61,736 bases of DNA, taken from assembly GCA_018821245.1 (NCBI GenBank), contig JAHJMO010000001.1, forward strand, positions 1 to 61,736, in the 5' to 3' direction. A program made the position numbers and the translations under genes. The notes under the pieces are model-generated. The model was given only the letters and a program-made list of their open reading frames with translations. It was not told the origin of the DNA and did no database searches. This document shows positions 911-9,273 of the stretch, in pieces; the first letter of the stretch is position 1, and each line of letters opens with the position of its first letter. This stretch comes from Patescibacteria group bacterium. Lineage in GTDB: Bacteria > Patescibacteriota > Microgenomatia > UBA10105 > UBA927.

Positions 911-939
911 TTGACAGACATATTCCCGCGCTGTATTGT
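911..939 (+). promoter_or_regulatory. Predicted sigma70-type promoter upstream of 28-aa peptide ORF
   Basis: TTGACA (911-916), 17-nt spacer, TATTGT (934-939); purine-rich AGGGGGGTGA at 951-960 before ATG 972. Confidence 0.5.
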
Positions 940-971
940 AAGAATACAGAAGGGGGGTGAATACATTAAGC

Positions 972-1058
972 ATGAAAACACCGAAACGAATCTACAAAAA
1001 ACCAGCGGATAAAAAAATTAAACTGCGCGCCGTCTTAATCATACCTGAGGCTGTGTAG
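972..1058 (+). CDS. Small peptide MKTPKRIYKKPADKKIKLRAVLIIPEAV, candidate RiPP-like precursor
   Basis: 28-codon ORF below the ORF-track cutoff; own promoter; YKKP motif; 25 nt upstream of a PqqD-like gene. Confidence 0.45.
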   Translation: MKTPKRIYKKPADKKIKLRAVLIIPEAV

Positions 1059-1083
1059 TAAACAGCATTTAGCATACCGAGAA

Positions 1084-1344
1084 ATGAAACTCCGCAGAAA
1101 TCCAAGCGTCTACTCCAAAAAAGTTGACGGCAAGTGGCTGATTCTCGAACCCGATAAACAGCACATCCGGGAGTTAAACGAGACTGCCGATTTTGTTTGG
1201 GGGGCAACACAAAAACCCATCGAAGTTTCAACGATAATAAAGCGCCTTGCCAAGGCATACCTCCTTCCGCCGGAACAATGTAAAAAGGACGTCGAAGAAT
1301 TTGTACGCCGATATTTGAGGGAAAAATTGCTTCTTCCTGCCTAG
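1084..1344 (+). CDS. PqqD-like protein (RRE fold)
   Basis: RRNPSVYSKKVDGKWLILEPDKQHIRELNETADFVW pattern typical of PqqD family. Confidence 0.7.
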   Translation: MKLRRNPSVYSKKVDGKWLILEPDKQHIRELNETADFVWGATQKPIEVSTIIKRLAKAYLLPPEQCKKDVEEFVRRYLREKLLLPA

Positions 1345-1695
1345 CGGTATCCACCGGCCACCCCTCTTTACCTCTGTTGCAATACCGATAAAATCCTCTT
1401 CTTCGACAATCCATGGATCCGGACGGACAACCGCGTCTCCTTTGGTTTGAAAAGTTATCTGTTTGCCGAAGTGATTGATCTTTATAATACGGTGGATAAC
1501 AAGCGTACGATGAACAGGAGAAAAATACACTGCCATTTGTCGGCGCGAAACGCACGAAAGGAGCACCCGTTGTACGCGCACCTGCTCGCCCGACCGAATA
1601 GTTGGGCGCATGCTTGCTCCTCGCGCAGTTACAATAACCCCTGCTCCCGGAGGAAGTTGTCTGATAAAATAGAACCATCTGTCTTTTGTCGGCAT
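1228..1695 (-). CDS. S24/S26 family signal peptidase, SEC11-like (Ser/His)
   Basis: GASMRPTIRSGEQVRV (Ser box), LVIHRIIKI (His box), TKGDAVV box. Confidence 0.75.
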   Translation of the reverse strand: MPTKDRWFYFIRQLPPGAGVIVTARGASMRPTIRSGEQVRVQRVLLSCVSRRQMAVYFSPVHRTLVIHRIIKINHFGKQITFQTKGDAVVRPDPWIVEEEDFIGIATEVKRGGRWIPLGRKKQFFPQISAYKFFDVLFTLFRRKEVCLGKALYYR

Positions 1696-1732: not shown

Positions 1733-3043
1733 ATGACATATATTACCCAACGCGCACATAACCCACGTTTACCAACGGTGTTAGGAGCTTATTGGAAAGG
1801 GGGTTTTATCGTCCTTCTTGCCGTTGTATTCGGTAAATCCGTGAGCCTCTTATGGAAGCTGTTGTTGGCACGAATTGGACCGCAAAGCTTGGGAACGGTT
1901 GAAATAGCACTCACTGTTTTTACCACGTTATCCTCTTTTTCACTTTTAGGCCTTCATACCGCGCTTATGCGGTTTGTTACCATACACACCGCAAAGAAAG
2001 CACACGGGCAAGCACAAGTCCTTTTGTGGGTTTCTCTTAAAATAGCCACGGCAATAGGGCTTCTTTTGGTAATGTTATTTCTGAAATATCCGCACATACT
2101 GCCGTCTCTCATCGATTCATCAGCCCCGCTTCTGGAAAGCCTGCTGCCGTATCTTTGGATCATTCCTCTTTTTGCAGCAAGCGAGCTTTTGTGGAGCTTT
2201 CTTGCGGCAACGAAACAGATGGCCTCATATGCTATCGCAAAATATGTTTTTCAGCCGGCATTCAGGCTCTTTTTCATTACTGCGGCAATGATAGTGGGTG
2301 TCGGAACCTCCGGCATATTGGTCCCGCACCTTGTTTATTCCGGCGTGGCATCATGTGTTCTATCCATTGCTCTTGTGATCAGGAGGGTAAACACAAGACC
2401 TTCCTCAACGTGCACGCCCACCATAAAACCATTTCTTCTTTTTGCGCTGCCTATGGGCGGATCCTTTATTGCGTTTGTTCTTTACGGCGCGCTTGATGTA
2501 TTTCTTGTGGGGCGCTATTTAGGAATAGCGCAGGTAGGACTTCTTTCTGCTGTTTTTATTATATCGGGCATTCCCGACGCCATCTACGCTCCGCTTCTTA
2601 ATATTTTTCAAACGTATCTGGGAAACACATACACCAACATAAGACAGGGCTTCTCTTTCACGGTTTCCAATTGCATGCTTTTTTTGGTGGTAGGCGCTAT
2701 CACCGGAGCCTTTGTTTACCTCCTTCGTCAGGGAATTGTAACGTACTTTATGGGCCCGCCGTACCAAACTATAGTACCGCTTGTTGGCGCCTTTCTTCTT
2801 ATAAAGATTCTCCAGGATGCCATCGTTCTCCCGCTTCGGCACTTTCTCGATTTTTACGGCTATGTGCATCACACTTTTGTTCTTATGCTTATTTCAACAT
2901 TGGTCAAACTCATTGTTGGCATTCGTACAGTGCCTGCCGTGGGTTTAACCGGGGTTATACTCATGCAAACTGCCGGGATTATTGTTCACCTTGCGGGGTG
3001 TCTGCTGGTGACATGGATCGTCGTTCGCAGCCGCAAAAACTGA
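1733..3043 (+). CDS. Polysaccharide/oligosaccharide flippase (MATE/Wzx-like)
   Basis: 436 aa multi-TM, FGKSVSLLWKLLLARIGPQSLGTVEIALTVF N-terminus typical of polysaccharide exporters. Confidence 0.7.
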   Translation: MTYITQRAHNPRLPTVLGAYWKGGFIVLLAVVFGKSVSLLWKLLLARIGPQSLGTVEIALTVFTTLSSFSLLGLHTALMRFVTIHTAKKAHGQAQVLLWVSLKIATAIGLLLVMLFLKYPHILPSLIDSSAPLLESLLPYLWIIPLFAASELLWSFLAATKQMASYAIAKYVFQPAFRLFFITAAMIVGVGTSGILVPHLVYSGVASCVLSIALVIRRVNTRPSSTCTPTIKPFLLFALPMGGSFIAFVLYGALDVFLVGRYLGIAQVGLLSAVFIISGIPDAIYAPLLNIFQTYLGNTYTNIRQGFSFTVSNCMLFLVVGAITGAFVYLLRQGIVTYFMGPPYQTIVPLVGAFLLIKILQDAIVLPLRHFLDFYGYVHHTFVLMLISTLVKLIVGIRTVPAVGLTGVILMQTAGIIVHLAGCLLVTWIVVRSRKN

Positions 3044-6155: not shown

Positions 6156-7079
6156 TTATTTATCGCTGTAATGTTTTCTTTGATACAAAATAATTCGCAT
6201 ATTCCGCACAACAAACCACAACGCTTTGGGGTAAACCAGCAAGTGTCTTTTATATAAAGTCATTCCAAATATATAAAGTTGTCCCAACAGAAGAGGCGGA
6301 ATATTGATGATTATCTTTATTAAAGGCCAATGTAGAAGAACAACAAGCAGCCAATTGCGATAGCTGTGATACAACTGAAAATAGCTTCCGCGCCCAGCTG
6401 TTTGCGAACCCAGGTGCGTAACCAGAGGCTCGTTGGAAATATATATTTTGCCGCCGTCTTTATGAATACGCAACGATAGCTCAAGATCCTCGGAGTACGC
6501 AAAAAACAACGGATTAAATACATACCCATGCTTTTTCAGTTCTTTTTTTACGCGGTTTTTATATAATAAAACGCAAGTTCCTGAAAATATTGAAGCGTCT
6601 TTCGGGATGGCGTCCCTGCGTCTGGGTAATGCAACGCCTGTTTTATTATAATTAAGCCCAACGCTTTCAATCTCGCCTCCGGGTGCAATAATTTTACAGG
6701 ATACGACATCGTACCTGTCCGACCCAAGCTTCGACAAAAGAGAGACGAAAAAGCCCTTGTGTACACACGCATCATCGTTAAGAACGAAATACCAATCTGG
6801 ATCTCTGCGTGCTCTTTCGTAGACTATCCCGTCGTTGACTGCGGGCGCAAACCCTTTGTTCACATGAGAAACAAGCGCTTCTGCGGCAATGTGTGTTTTT
6901 CTGTGGATATCGTTGGCTATGGTTTCTGCAGATACACGAATTGGGACATCATTTGCGATAACCGTCACCCAATAAGATATGTCAGCTGTTGCTGCTTGTT
7001 TGATTGAGCAAATGGCACGAAACAGCGCCTTCGGGTGTTTCATGTAGACAGTGGGAATAATGACCGATATGGTGATCAT
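6156..7079 (-). CDS. GT2 family glycosyltransferase
   Basis: MITISVIIPTVYM start, VLNDDACVHKGF (DxD region), later SEDLELSLRIHKDGGKIY. Confidence 0.8.
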   Translation of the reverse strand: MITISVIIPTVYMKHPKALFRAICSIKQAATADISYWVTVIANDVPIRVSAETIANDIHRKTHIAAEALVSHVNKGFAPAVNDGIVYERARRDPDWYFVLNDDACVHKGFFVSLLSKLGSDRYDVVSCKIIAPGGEIESVGLNYNKTGVALPRRRDAIPKDASIFSGTCVLLYKNRVKKELKKHGYVFNPLFFAYSEDLELSLRIHKDGGKIYISNEPLVTHLGSQTAGRGSYFQLYHSYRNWLLVVLLHWPLIKIIINIPPLLLGQLYIFGMTLYKRHLLVYPKALWFVVRNMRIILYQRKHYSDK

Positions 7080-7375: not shown

Positions 7376-7582
7376 TTAATCATAAATGCCGGTCGATTTC
7401 TGCATATTTTTCTTAAATGTTTTGCCGCTTGTCAAAACCGGCCCAGTATTTATGCATTTTAAAGGGATTACAGAAGCCGCAAAACGAATACTGCTTCCCG
7501 CTTGAACCACCGATTTGACTGCTCTCGCAAGGCAACCGTCATCCGGATCGCGCATTGCCGGAATAATGGCGATAATTTTCAT
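7376..7582 (-). pseudogene. Truncated GT2 glycosyltransferase N-terminus
   Basis: MKIIAIIPAMRDPDDGCLARAVKSVVQAGSSIRFAASVI is GT2-like, then homology-like signal ends; start overlaps GH27 stop as ATGA. Confidence 0.5.
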
Positions 7583-9273
7583 TGGTTGCAAAAAACTCTT
7601 GCATCTGCCCAATCGGCGTGTTGGTATTGCGTGGTGTCTGGATCGGAAGATACCACTTGTAGTATGAGGTTTCGATTTCCGGAAATATCGACAGAAATTG
7701 GCAGAGGCATAAAGGACATTGTGACAATCCCGCTATCATAAAGCCTCTGGCCGTCTCCATAAACACGGAAGATTGCGCCGGTCTTCTTGTCCTCTACCTC
7801 GTCGTCTATTCCGACAACAGCATGAAATAACCTGCATTTATCTCCCAACCGGTAAAGAATGTTTGAATACGAATGTACGCCAAGCCCCTTATTAAACTCT
7901 TGGCCCCTTATGGAAAGCGTGCTGCCGTCTCCGCTATCCGTTTCGCCGTTGGACATATCCTTCTCTACTGGACCATGACCGTTTTCTGCATATATCCACT
8001 CCTGATCCGAAAGAAATCCGTCACTGGTTGTGTGGAGTGGAGGGAGCTGCGTTGTTTTGCCTTTGTTCGTAATAAGGCCATACACCTTCAACAATAAAAC
8101 GCCGTGCGCCGGCACCTCTCTGGAAAATTTTTTTTGTGAAAATCCCAACCACTTATGCTCCCAAACATCGCGAATCAATACCGGCGCAAGATACCCGATG
8201 TCACTCCACTTTACGGTTATTATCGAAGGATAATTCCCGCGATTAAATAAAGCAACTGCATTAGCGCCGCTTTGTGCTAATTTTTTTGTCCAAACTTCCT
8301 GATCTTGAGATTTTTGGATTTGTTTGCCTTGACTCTCTGTGGCATCTTGGTCTATTTCAATTGCTTCCTGATTTGTAAGAATTTCGCGGGTTGTGTCTGT
8401 CATTGTACGAATATCATTTCCTGCAATCAGTGGGGCTCCCATCATCGCCCACATACTGAGGTGTGACTTTTGTTCTTCAGCCGTTAAGTTGCCAACGCCC
8501 ACAACCAACATGTCTGGGTCGTTTCGATGGTTTTGATCGGCATACCGTGCGAGCGGCTCATTGACATCAATAATTGAAGCAATACTTTCCCAGGAATCCC
8601 TGATGTCATTGTTTACGCGCCACATTTGTGATATGGCCCTTCCCCATAACCATGGCCTTTCTTTTCCTAAGTTTGGCATAGCGATACTAAATACCACAGG
8701 ACGGGATGATTTGCTTATTAAACCCCGCCATAAATCATACTGCACGAGGGCGTCAAGGTCGTCCACGCCGCACCAATCTACCTTAATAAAATCAACTCCC
8801 CATTCGGTATAACGGTCGATGTCTTTTTCTTCGTGGCCAAAACTGCCGGGTCTTCCTTCACAAGTTAAGACTCCTGCGCTTGTATATATACCAAACTTCA
8901 ATCCTTTCGCGTGAATATAATCTCCGAGAGCTTTCATGCCGCTTGGAAATTTCTTTGGATCAGCCACAATAGTTTCCCATGAATTTCTTTCGATCTGCCA
9001 ACAATCGTCAAGCACAATATACGCATAGCCCGCTTCTTTCATGCCTGTCGTTACCAGAGCATCCGCCGTTTCTTTAATCAACCGTTCGTTCACTTCGTCA
9101 TTGCAACGAAATCTGTTCCACCCGTTCCACCCCATGAGGGGTGTTGATCCCAAATTACGCATTGTAACGGTTGAAGGCGGGCTACAAATAAGAAGCGACG
9201 GCACGACGACAACACCAATTATTGTTAAGACAAAAACCAAAATTTTTGTTTTTTTATTTGCTTTTTTCATCAA
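7579..9273 (-). CDS. GH27 alpha-galactosidase with C-terminal NPCBM domain, exported
   Basis: TPLMGWNGWNRF, YIVLDDCWQ, FIKVDWCG (nucleophile region), NDPDMLVVG; NPCBM-like GLGVHSYSNILYRL; N-terminal TM/signal. Confidence 0.9.
   Translation of the reverse strand: MMKKANKKTKILVFVLTIIGVVVVPSLLICSPPSTVTMRNLGSTPLMGWNGWNRFRCNDEVNERLIKETADALVTTGMKEAGYAYIVLDDCWQIERNSWETIVADPKKFPSGMKALGDYIHAKGLKFGIYTSAGVLTCEGRPGSFGHEEKDIDRYTEWGVDFIKVDWCGVDDLDALVQYDLWRGLISKSSRPVVFSIAMPNLGKERPWLWGRAISQMWRVNNDIRDSWESIASIIDVNEPLARYADQNHRNDPDMLVVGVGNLTAEEQKSHLSMWAMMGAPLIAGNDIRTMTDTTREILTNQEAIEIDQDATESQGKQIQKSQDQEVWTKKLAQSGANAVALFNRGNYPSIITVKWSDIGYLAPVLIRDVWEHKWLGFSQKKFSREVPAHGVLLLKVYGLITNKGKTTQLPPLHTTSDGFLSDQEWIYAENGHGPVEKDMSNGETDSGDGSTLSIRGQEFNKGLGVHSYSNILYRLGDKCRLFHAVVGIDDEVEDKKTGAIFRVYGDGQRLYDSGIVTMSFMPLPISVDISGNRNLILQVVSSDPDTTQYQHADWADARVFCNQ

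Follow-up and report, generated by a model that had tools for sequence, protein, structure and literature searches.

Enzymes of the QueC family spend ATP to activate a carboxylate, to which they then deliver nitrogen; QueC itself, which ordinarily serves to make an RNA base, forms first an amide and then a nitrile. The family has also been repurposed to modify proteins, as shown for Cap9 of type IV CBASS, which makes an N-terminal amide on a protein (PMC13279940), and as proposed for QatC of the qatABCD system. The targets of both are defence proteins that carry an N-terminal MGGS/MGTS motif, and Cap9 uses CDG, which in QueC and Cap9 is read by the Tyr/Asp pair of a YPDCR stretch (PMC13279940). 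For ribosomal peptides the nearest chemical precedent is that of the nitrilobacillins/nitrilotides, where PesC of the pes cluster activates the C-terminal carboxylate of the peptide, and for which QueC chemistry was named as a mechanistic parallel; these products have been reported only from Bacillus-related genera (PMC13060819). A third point of reference is given by the lasso systems with a discrete RiPP recognition element (RRE) of the PqqD type, such as TbiB1 and TfuB1. RREs of this group have been described as binding motifs of the W/Y/LxxP type, and an RRE fused to a further domain suggests that the two work together (PMC12710340). In bacteria of the candidate phyla radiation (CPR), RiPPs have been reported as graspetides (PMC8939145). 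A structure-based RRE survey makes no mention of QueC (PMC12710340), and we found no QueC-RRE peptide system in the literature searched, which lacks most subscription-only papers.

The window, meaning the whole stretch of DNA analysed here (61,736 nucleotides), is the entire contig C3 of a 1.08-Mb Patescibacteria genome (G000). Near its start lies a candidate gene set for what looks like a novel type of small peptide, made on the ribosome and then chemically modified, in an ultra-small bacterium; its features are as follows:

5-907, + strand: QueC-family PP-loop ATPase of 300 aa, the proposed peptide-modifying enzyme (PF06508, E=5.4e-15).
911-939, + strand: sigma-70-like promoter match TTGACA-17-TATTGT (10/12 consensus bases).
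951-960, + strand: Shine-Dalgarno-like AGGGGGGTGA, seen in the sequence 11 nt before the ATG of 972-1058.
972-1058, + strand: 28-aa putative precursor peptide MKTPKRIYKKPADKKIKLRAVLIIPEAV, with a YKKP leader motif at 993-1004 and homologous peptides in nine other QueC/PqqD/S26 loci.
1084-1344, + strand: PqqD-type RRE of 86 aa (PF05402, E=3.5e-13).
1228-1695, - strand: soluble-looking S26B (SEC11-type Ser-His) peptidase, the proposed leader protease (TIGR02228, E=3e-14).
1733-3043, + strand: polysaccharide flippase (PF01943), a neighbouring glycan-export gene.

A preliminary description of this DNA had already recognized the 28-codon ORF with its YKKP, the PqqD-like gene 25 nt after it, the SEC11-like S26 peptidase on the opposite strand and the flippase that follows, and all four stand as listed, the ORF exactly as it was written. 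ORF 5-907 starts at the contig edge. The first 141 bases of the window are identical to the end of contig C11 (an assembler k-mer overlap), which thus covers the first 141 bp, so that the window start is an assembly break and not a gene end, and the DNA upstream is probably known: as read from C11 it encodes, among other things, the permease and the ATPase of an ABC-2 system (Wzm/Wzt type) and a methyltransferase-like protein. Membership of the flippase in the cassette is uncertain, none being found in the other cassettes examined. The same glycan region includes an alpha-galactosidase with an NPCBM domain (7579-9273), unusual baggage for a bacterium with a small genome. Among viral contigs no relative was found.

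The preliminary description saw no asparagine-synthetase-like cyclase, and in this it overlooked the gene at 5-907, whose product matches PF06508 and not the asparagine-synthetase-like PF00733, though it belongs to the same broad PP-loop superfamily; we propose that this is the modifying enzyme that had been missed. The PP-loop SGGLDS occupies residues 41-46 and the Zn site is formed by Cys240/248/251/254, and across 20 homologues the SGGxDS motif and the Zn-Cys4 cysteines are invariant or nearly so. Matches to QatC and TIGR00364 are weak and below their cut-offs. By fold and profile, Cap9 and QatC are among the closest solved structures: an AlphaFold model (pLDDT 85.7) superimposes on Cap9 with Z 18.8 over 174 residues at 2.5 Å, on B. 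subtilis QueC with Z 18.7 and on QatC with Z 17.5, and resembles the nitrile synthetase ArtA less well (Z 12.2). The enzyme thus shares its fold, PP-loop and Zn-Cys4 site with QueC, but differs from it in an extra N-terminal helix and insertions, in a lost CDG motif, in a host genome without QueD and in the RRE that accompanies it as neighbour or fusion.

Family membership and fold, together with the precedents of Cap9 and QatC in phage defence, make it natural to ask whether a deazaguanine (NDG-like) group is what the enzyme transfers, or whether it produces preQ0, with the peptide/RRE neighbourhood being secondary. The CDG-recognition Tyr/Asp of YPDCR is, however, replaced in 20/20 homologues when aligned to E. 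coli QueC, and QueD is absent from G000 and from 20/21 of all genomes that carry QueC, among them G097, a genome of a single contig. The peptides of the ten cassettes described below begin with MKK, MKT, MST, MQK or MKY; none carries the N-terminal MG motif of the Cap9/QatC acceptors, and they therefore offer no N-terminal glycine acceptor. On these three grounds the queuosine or NDG reading was rejected, and the fusion of an RRE to QueC speaks further against a deazaguanine or preQ0 role, which we regard as very improbable. Since the CDG motif is lost and both QueD and TGT are absent from G000, the protein is probably not a queuosine enzyme; TGT is present in most of the other QueC-carrying genomes, and those related genomes could salvage queuine. 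The Cap9 and QatC systems also differ from the cassette in having neither an RRE, nor a small peptide, nor an S26 peptidase.

The QueC-like enzyme is linked to a recognition element. In four loci (L053, L055, L061 and L130) QueC and PqqD form a single ORF; the first three of these fall in a second, sister clade of the QueC tree (support 100/99), in the model of the L061 fusion, whose own peptide lies at 6924-7025, a QueC domain leads into an RRE of four strands and three helices, and the L130 fusion has a peptide gene 78 bp upstream. Loci of the fusion clade also encode radical SAM proteins (L053 4249-5289, L059 6682-7668 and L061 7581-8558, Pfam-confirmed in L053 and L059), and several of their peptides end in W...Y (IWTDY, VWTMSY, SIWGGGYAY), sequences that suggest a second modification.

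QueC-like genes are sparse in the class (21/373 genomes at E<=1e-6), and their contexts are not random. A QueC-like gene, PqqD, S26 and a Lys-rich YxxP peptide of 21-34 aa occur together in ten loci (the window, L045, L046, L047, L063, L120, L121, L122, L123 and L124), which span two families (f1 and f9) of the same class of Patescibacteria. Nine of the ten cassette QueCs form one clade in the tree (92/95) and PqqD adjoins every member; the QueC of L063, split over two contigs, was left out of the tree. The preliminary description had proposed to look for conservation of the peptide ORF beside PqqD and for co-occurrence of PqqD with S26, and both were found: the YxxP peptide gene is present in 10/10 loci of the window's QueC clade, usually within 150 bp of PqqD or QueC, and PqqD and S26 are both present in 10/10. 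The window, L045 and L063 have the common order QueC > peptide > PqqD < S26, the last two genes overlapping tail to tail (by 117 bp in the window), and in L046 the peptide is encoded on the opposite strand and its ribosome-binding site is weak. A scan of the genome contigs with a narrow alignment returned eight loci, the majority of which fall outside the PqqD-linked clade. The ten peptides are MKTPKRIYKKPADKKIKLRAVLIIPEAV (window), MSTKKQKKKYKKPQDLRVKINALLFLEGE, MKYIVPQDIRVEILAVLVQED, MQKYKKPQLRIIDLKAILVVAE, MKKKSYNKPSVKKVALVAVAFAEPI, MKKQAKKYSKPELKKSKIKINFAFAVAK, MKKQLKKYVKPELKKNKVKINFAFAASK, MKKYNKPVLKKAKIKISLAVAEAI, MKKPSKEYIKPNDKKVKIRIVLPFVASSHDPFEI and MKKKSQVKVVKYQKPSDTRSKITVMLVET. Their cores are short and diverse with no side chain common to all, the putative core of the window peptide being its short hydrophobic C-terminal part.

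With so short a frame the suspicion arises that the 28 codons are an untranslated intergenic stretch. The promoter noted in the preliminary description is indeed present, yet as evidence it is only suggestive, because promoter-like sites in the region are no more numerous than in shuffles (12 vs 9.2 +/- 2.8). Against chance speak the small ORFs of 20-50 aa in the same loci, where the Y.KP motif was found in 12/236 (5.1%) of those within 150 bp of QueC/PqqD vs 29/6971 (0.42%) elsewhere, a 12-fold enrichment (Fisher p=3.9e-9, or 3.3e-8 without the window). By an automatic rule, a Lys-rich YxxP ORF lies within 300 bp in 11/14 QueC loci with PqqD vs 1/14 without (p=1.7e-4); the rule missed L046, L053 and L120, which were added by eye from the sequence, a less objective procedure. 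Both of these p-values overstate independence, because the loci share ancestry. The looser Y..P motif is slightly enriched within 150 bp (p=0.01) and not at 600 bp, and our argument therefore rests on Y.KP, on position and on the gene set. The ATG is preceded by a strong Shine-Dalgarno-like stretch, within which a GTG at 957 would fall, and a Lys-rich YxxP small ORF arises in only 24/5000 dinucleotide shuffles of the gap 908-1083. Codon evidence is available from the homologous peptides of L121 and L123, two loci of the same genus: the pair differs by 8 synonymous and 6 non-synonymous codons, 11/20 substitutions are at third positions, dN is 0.14 with dS saturated, and the downstream spacer (3' flank) has diverged. 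Evidence of purifying selection thus comes from this homologous pair and not from the peptide of the window itself. Taken with the peptide gene's presence throughout the clade, these data indicate that the 28-aa ORF is real and is part of a conserved cassette, and make a chance frame exceedingly improbable.

The short precursor gene with its RRE-type motif, conserved and adjoining a PqqD/RRE domain, has the arrangement of an RRE-dependent RiPP system, and we consider the pairing of peptide and RRE as substrate and receptor well supported by gene content; this half of the earlier proposal stands, and the other half, S26 as the protease, is only plausible. The lasso framing that came with it fared less well. 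In its favour, the family profile of the RRE matches lasso RREs in the PDB, with TbiB1 best (2.4e-15), TfuB1 at 2.1e-10 and other lasso PqqD proteins also among the best matches. With these systems the cassette shares a PqqD-type RRE of the same group, a YxxP-like leader and an ATP-dependent PP-loop partner. One could therefore picture the PP-loop enzyme as a macrolactam synthetase that acts once S26 exposes the core N-terminus, giving a lasso-like or otherwise cyclic peptide, closed head to tail or from the N-terminus to a Glu close to the C-terminus; an acidic residue does occur within the last few positions of most of the ten peptides, and amide formation with an N-terminal amine is known from Cap9 (PMC13279940). 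However, that residue is missing in L121 and L123, and the core is much shorter than those of lasso peptides, too short for a threaded tail. The lasso protease B2 (PF13471) was found in 0/19 genomes checked, G000 included, in line with the preliminary description, which had seen no transglutaminase-like protease. The enzyme is of QueC type and not a PF00733 cyclase, and the lasso leader end is lacking: neither a Thr at -2 nor a ring-forming Asp/Glu at core position 7-9 forms a conserved column in the ten peptides. A true lasso was rejected for want of B2 and of lasso leader features, and for the wider group of lasso-like and cyclic products we judge the chances to be slim.

The nitrilotides can be compared both in chemistry and in genes. 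Both would use a PP-loop-type ATP enzyme on the C-terminal carboxylate of a peptide, as shown for PesC and proposed for the cassette. PesC, however, is an asparagine-synthetase-like PF00733 enzyme, and the nitrilotide pathway depends on an MNIO hydroxylase and includes genes for M16 peptidases (PMC13060819); the cassette instead has a QueC-family enzyme, an RRE that is either discrete or fused, and a peptidase of the S26 family, and its PP-loop protein is not the PF00733 enzyme that defines the nitrilotide class.

The S26 gene is a match to TIGR02228 (NCBIfam) above its cut-off, the HMM-matched part being 1321-1689. The catalytic residues are in the conserved positions of the family, namely Ser28 (GASM), His68 (IHR) and Asp87 (KGD), and the S26 proteins of the cassettes retain all three. 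In six loci (L046, L063, L120, L121, L122 and L123) the peptidase and an ABC-exporter ATPase form one fused protein. From these sequences we read S26 as a plausible cytosolic leader protease tied to export. The logic of such a fusion, though not the protein family, is comparable to that of the C39-type peptidase exporters. In three further loci S26 is joined to a PF14907 nucleotidyltransferase beside PqqD (L055 12385-13680, L089 10218-11471 and L095 8640-9806).

From the observed gene conservation, co-occurrence and fusions, the conserved ATP, Zn and protease residues and the loss of the deazaguanine motif, we infer the substrate assignment, order of steps, reaction and product that follow. 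The ribosome would make the 28-aa peptide, whose Lys-rich YKKP leader, by analogy with established RRE biology, would be bound by PqqD/RRE. The RRE would present the peptide to the QueC-like PP-loop enzyme, with which it forms one polypeptide in four related loci, and this enzyme would use ATP to adenylate a peptide carboxylate. The likeliest target is the carboxylate of the C-terminus, no side-chain group being common to all cores. Attack by a nitrogen nucleophile may then follow, ammonia giving an amide and then perhaps a nitrile, as QueC does on its base, or alternatively an amine giving a macrolactam or conjugate, as Cap9 does on its protein. The S26B Ser-His peptidase would remove the leader, and the ABC-2 exporter (Wzm/Wzt type, its ATPase fused to the peptidase in six loci) would export the product. 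That the cassette is an RRE-guided, RiPP-like peptide-maturation pathway built around a QueC-family enzyme we consider fairly probable. We put forward more tentatively, as a possible but doubtful reading, that it represents a new RiPP class of Patescibacteria in which an RRE-guided or, in some lineages, RRE-fused QueC-family enzyme makes a C-terminal amide or nitrile on a very short peptide, and in which S26, itself joined in certain lineages to the exporter ATPase, links export with the removal of the leader.

The neighbourhood suggests a different fate for the same activated C-terminus. Glycosyltransferases, a flippase and Wzm/Wzt exporters surround most QueC loci, that of the window included, QueC-like genes without PqqD are found in similar surroundings, the peptidase is joined to an exporter ATPase, and conjugation is a reaction that a member of the family, Cap9, performs (PMC13279940). 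The QueC-like enzyme might thus join the peptide C-terminus to the amino group of a glycan or lipid carrier, with Wzm/Wzt exporting the conjugate as a surface decoration and not as a secreted RiPP. Against this, glycan loci abound in these genomes, so that the cassette may lie among such genes by coincidence, and no conserved glycan enzyme is seen with every cassette; we hold surface decoration to be unlikely.

Should the RRE-guided pathway be right, the QueC family would be added to the enzymes of ribosomal peptide modification, and protein modification by its members would extend beyond phage defence. The three to four genes would make a minimal set, small enough for testing in E. coli. It would also mean that Patescibacteria, whose genomes are reduced and which are believed to live on other cells, possess a diversified machinery for peptide maturation in which QueC, radical SAM and nucleotidyltransferase-S26 partners act on one type of YxxP leader, and the peptide products could mediate contact with hosts or harm to them.

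Several further observations concern relatives of the peptide and of the enzyme. There appears to be a wider Patescibacteria superfamily of YxxP/RRE peptides, mostly without QueC, and in L089, L090, L094, L095 and L098 the YxxP peptides have cores of other kinds, some of them longer or rich in Cys. Two peptides of different families, at L047 16615-16713 and L088 9708-9806, end almost alike (KIELTAFATVAS / KIELTAFATT); each is adjoined by PqqD and not by QueC, and has as neighbour a protein of ~280 aa with no Pfam match (tested in L047). QueC-like genes without PqqD were found at L048-L052, L054 and L056, most of them beside glycosyltransferases or Wzm/Wzt exporters, sugar amidation being one idea for their role. 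Near QueC loci that lack PqqD, a reliable peptide turned up only at L057, whose genome has PqqD elsewhere. Because these other QueC-like clades sit in glycan loci without PqqD or peptide, the ancestral substrate of the enzyme may not have been a peptide. Yet another QueC-like clade pairs with a thymidylate-synthase-like gene (L060 4414-6034, L078 6728-8381 and L079 4240-6424; PF00303 E=4.8e-8 in L060, and by neighbour similarity in L076/L082). This clade includes a contig labelled Nanoarchaeota, and possibly reflects modified-nucleotide metabolism or CPR-DPANN exchange.
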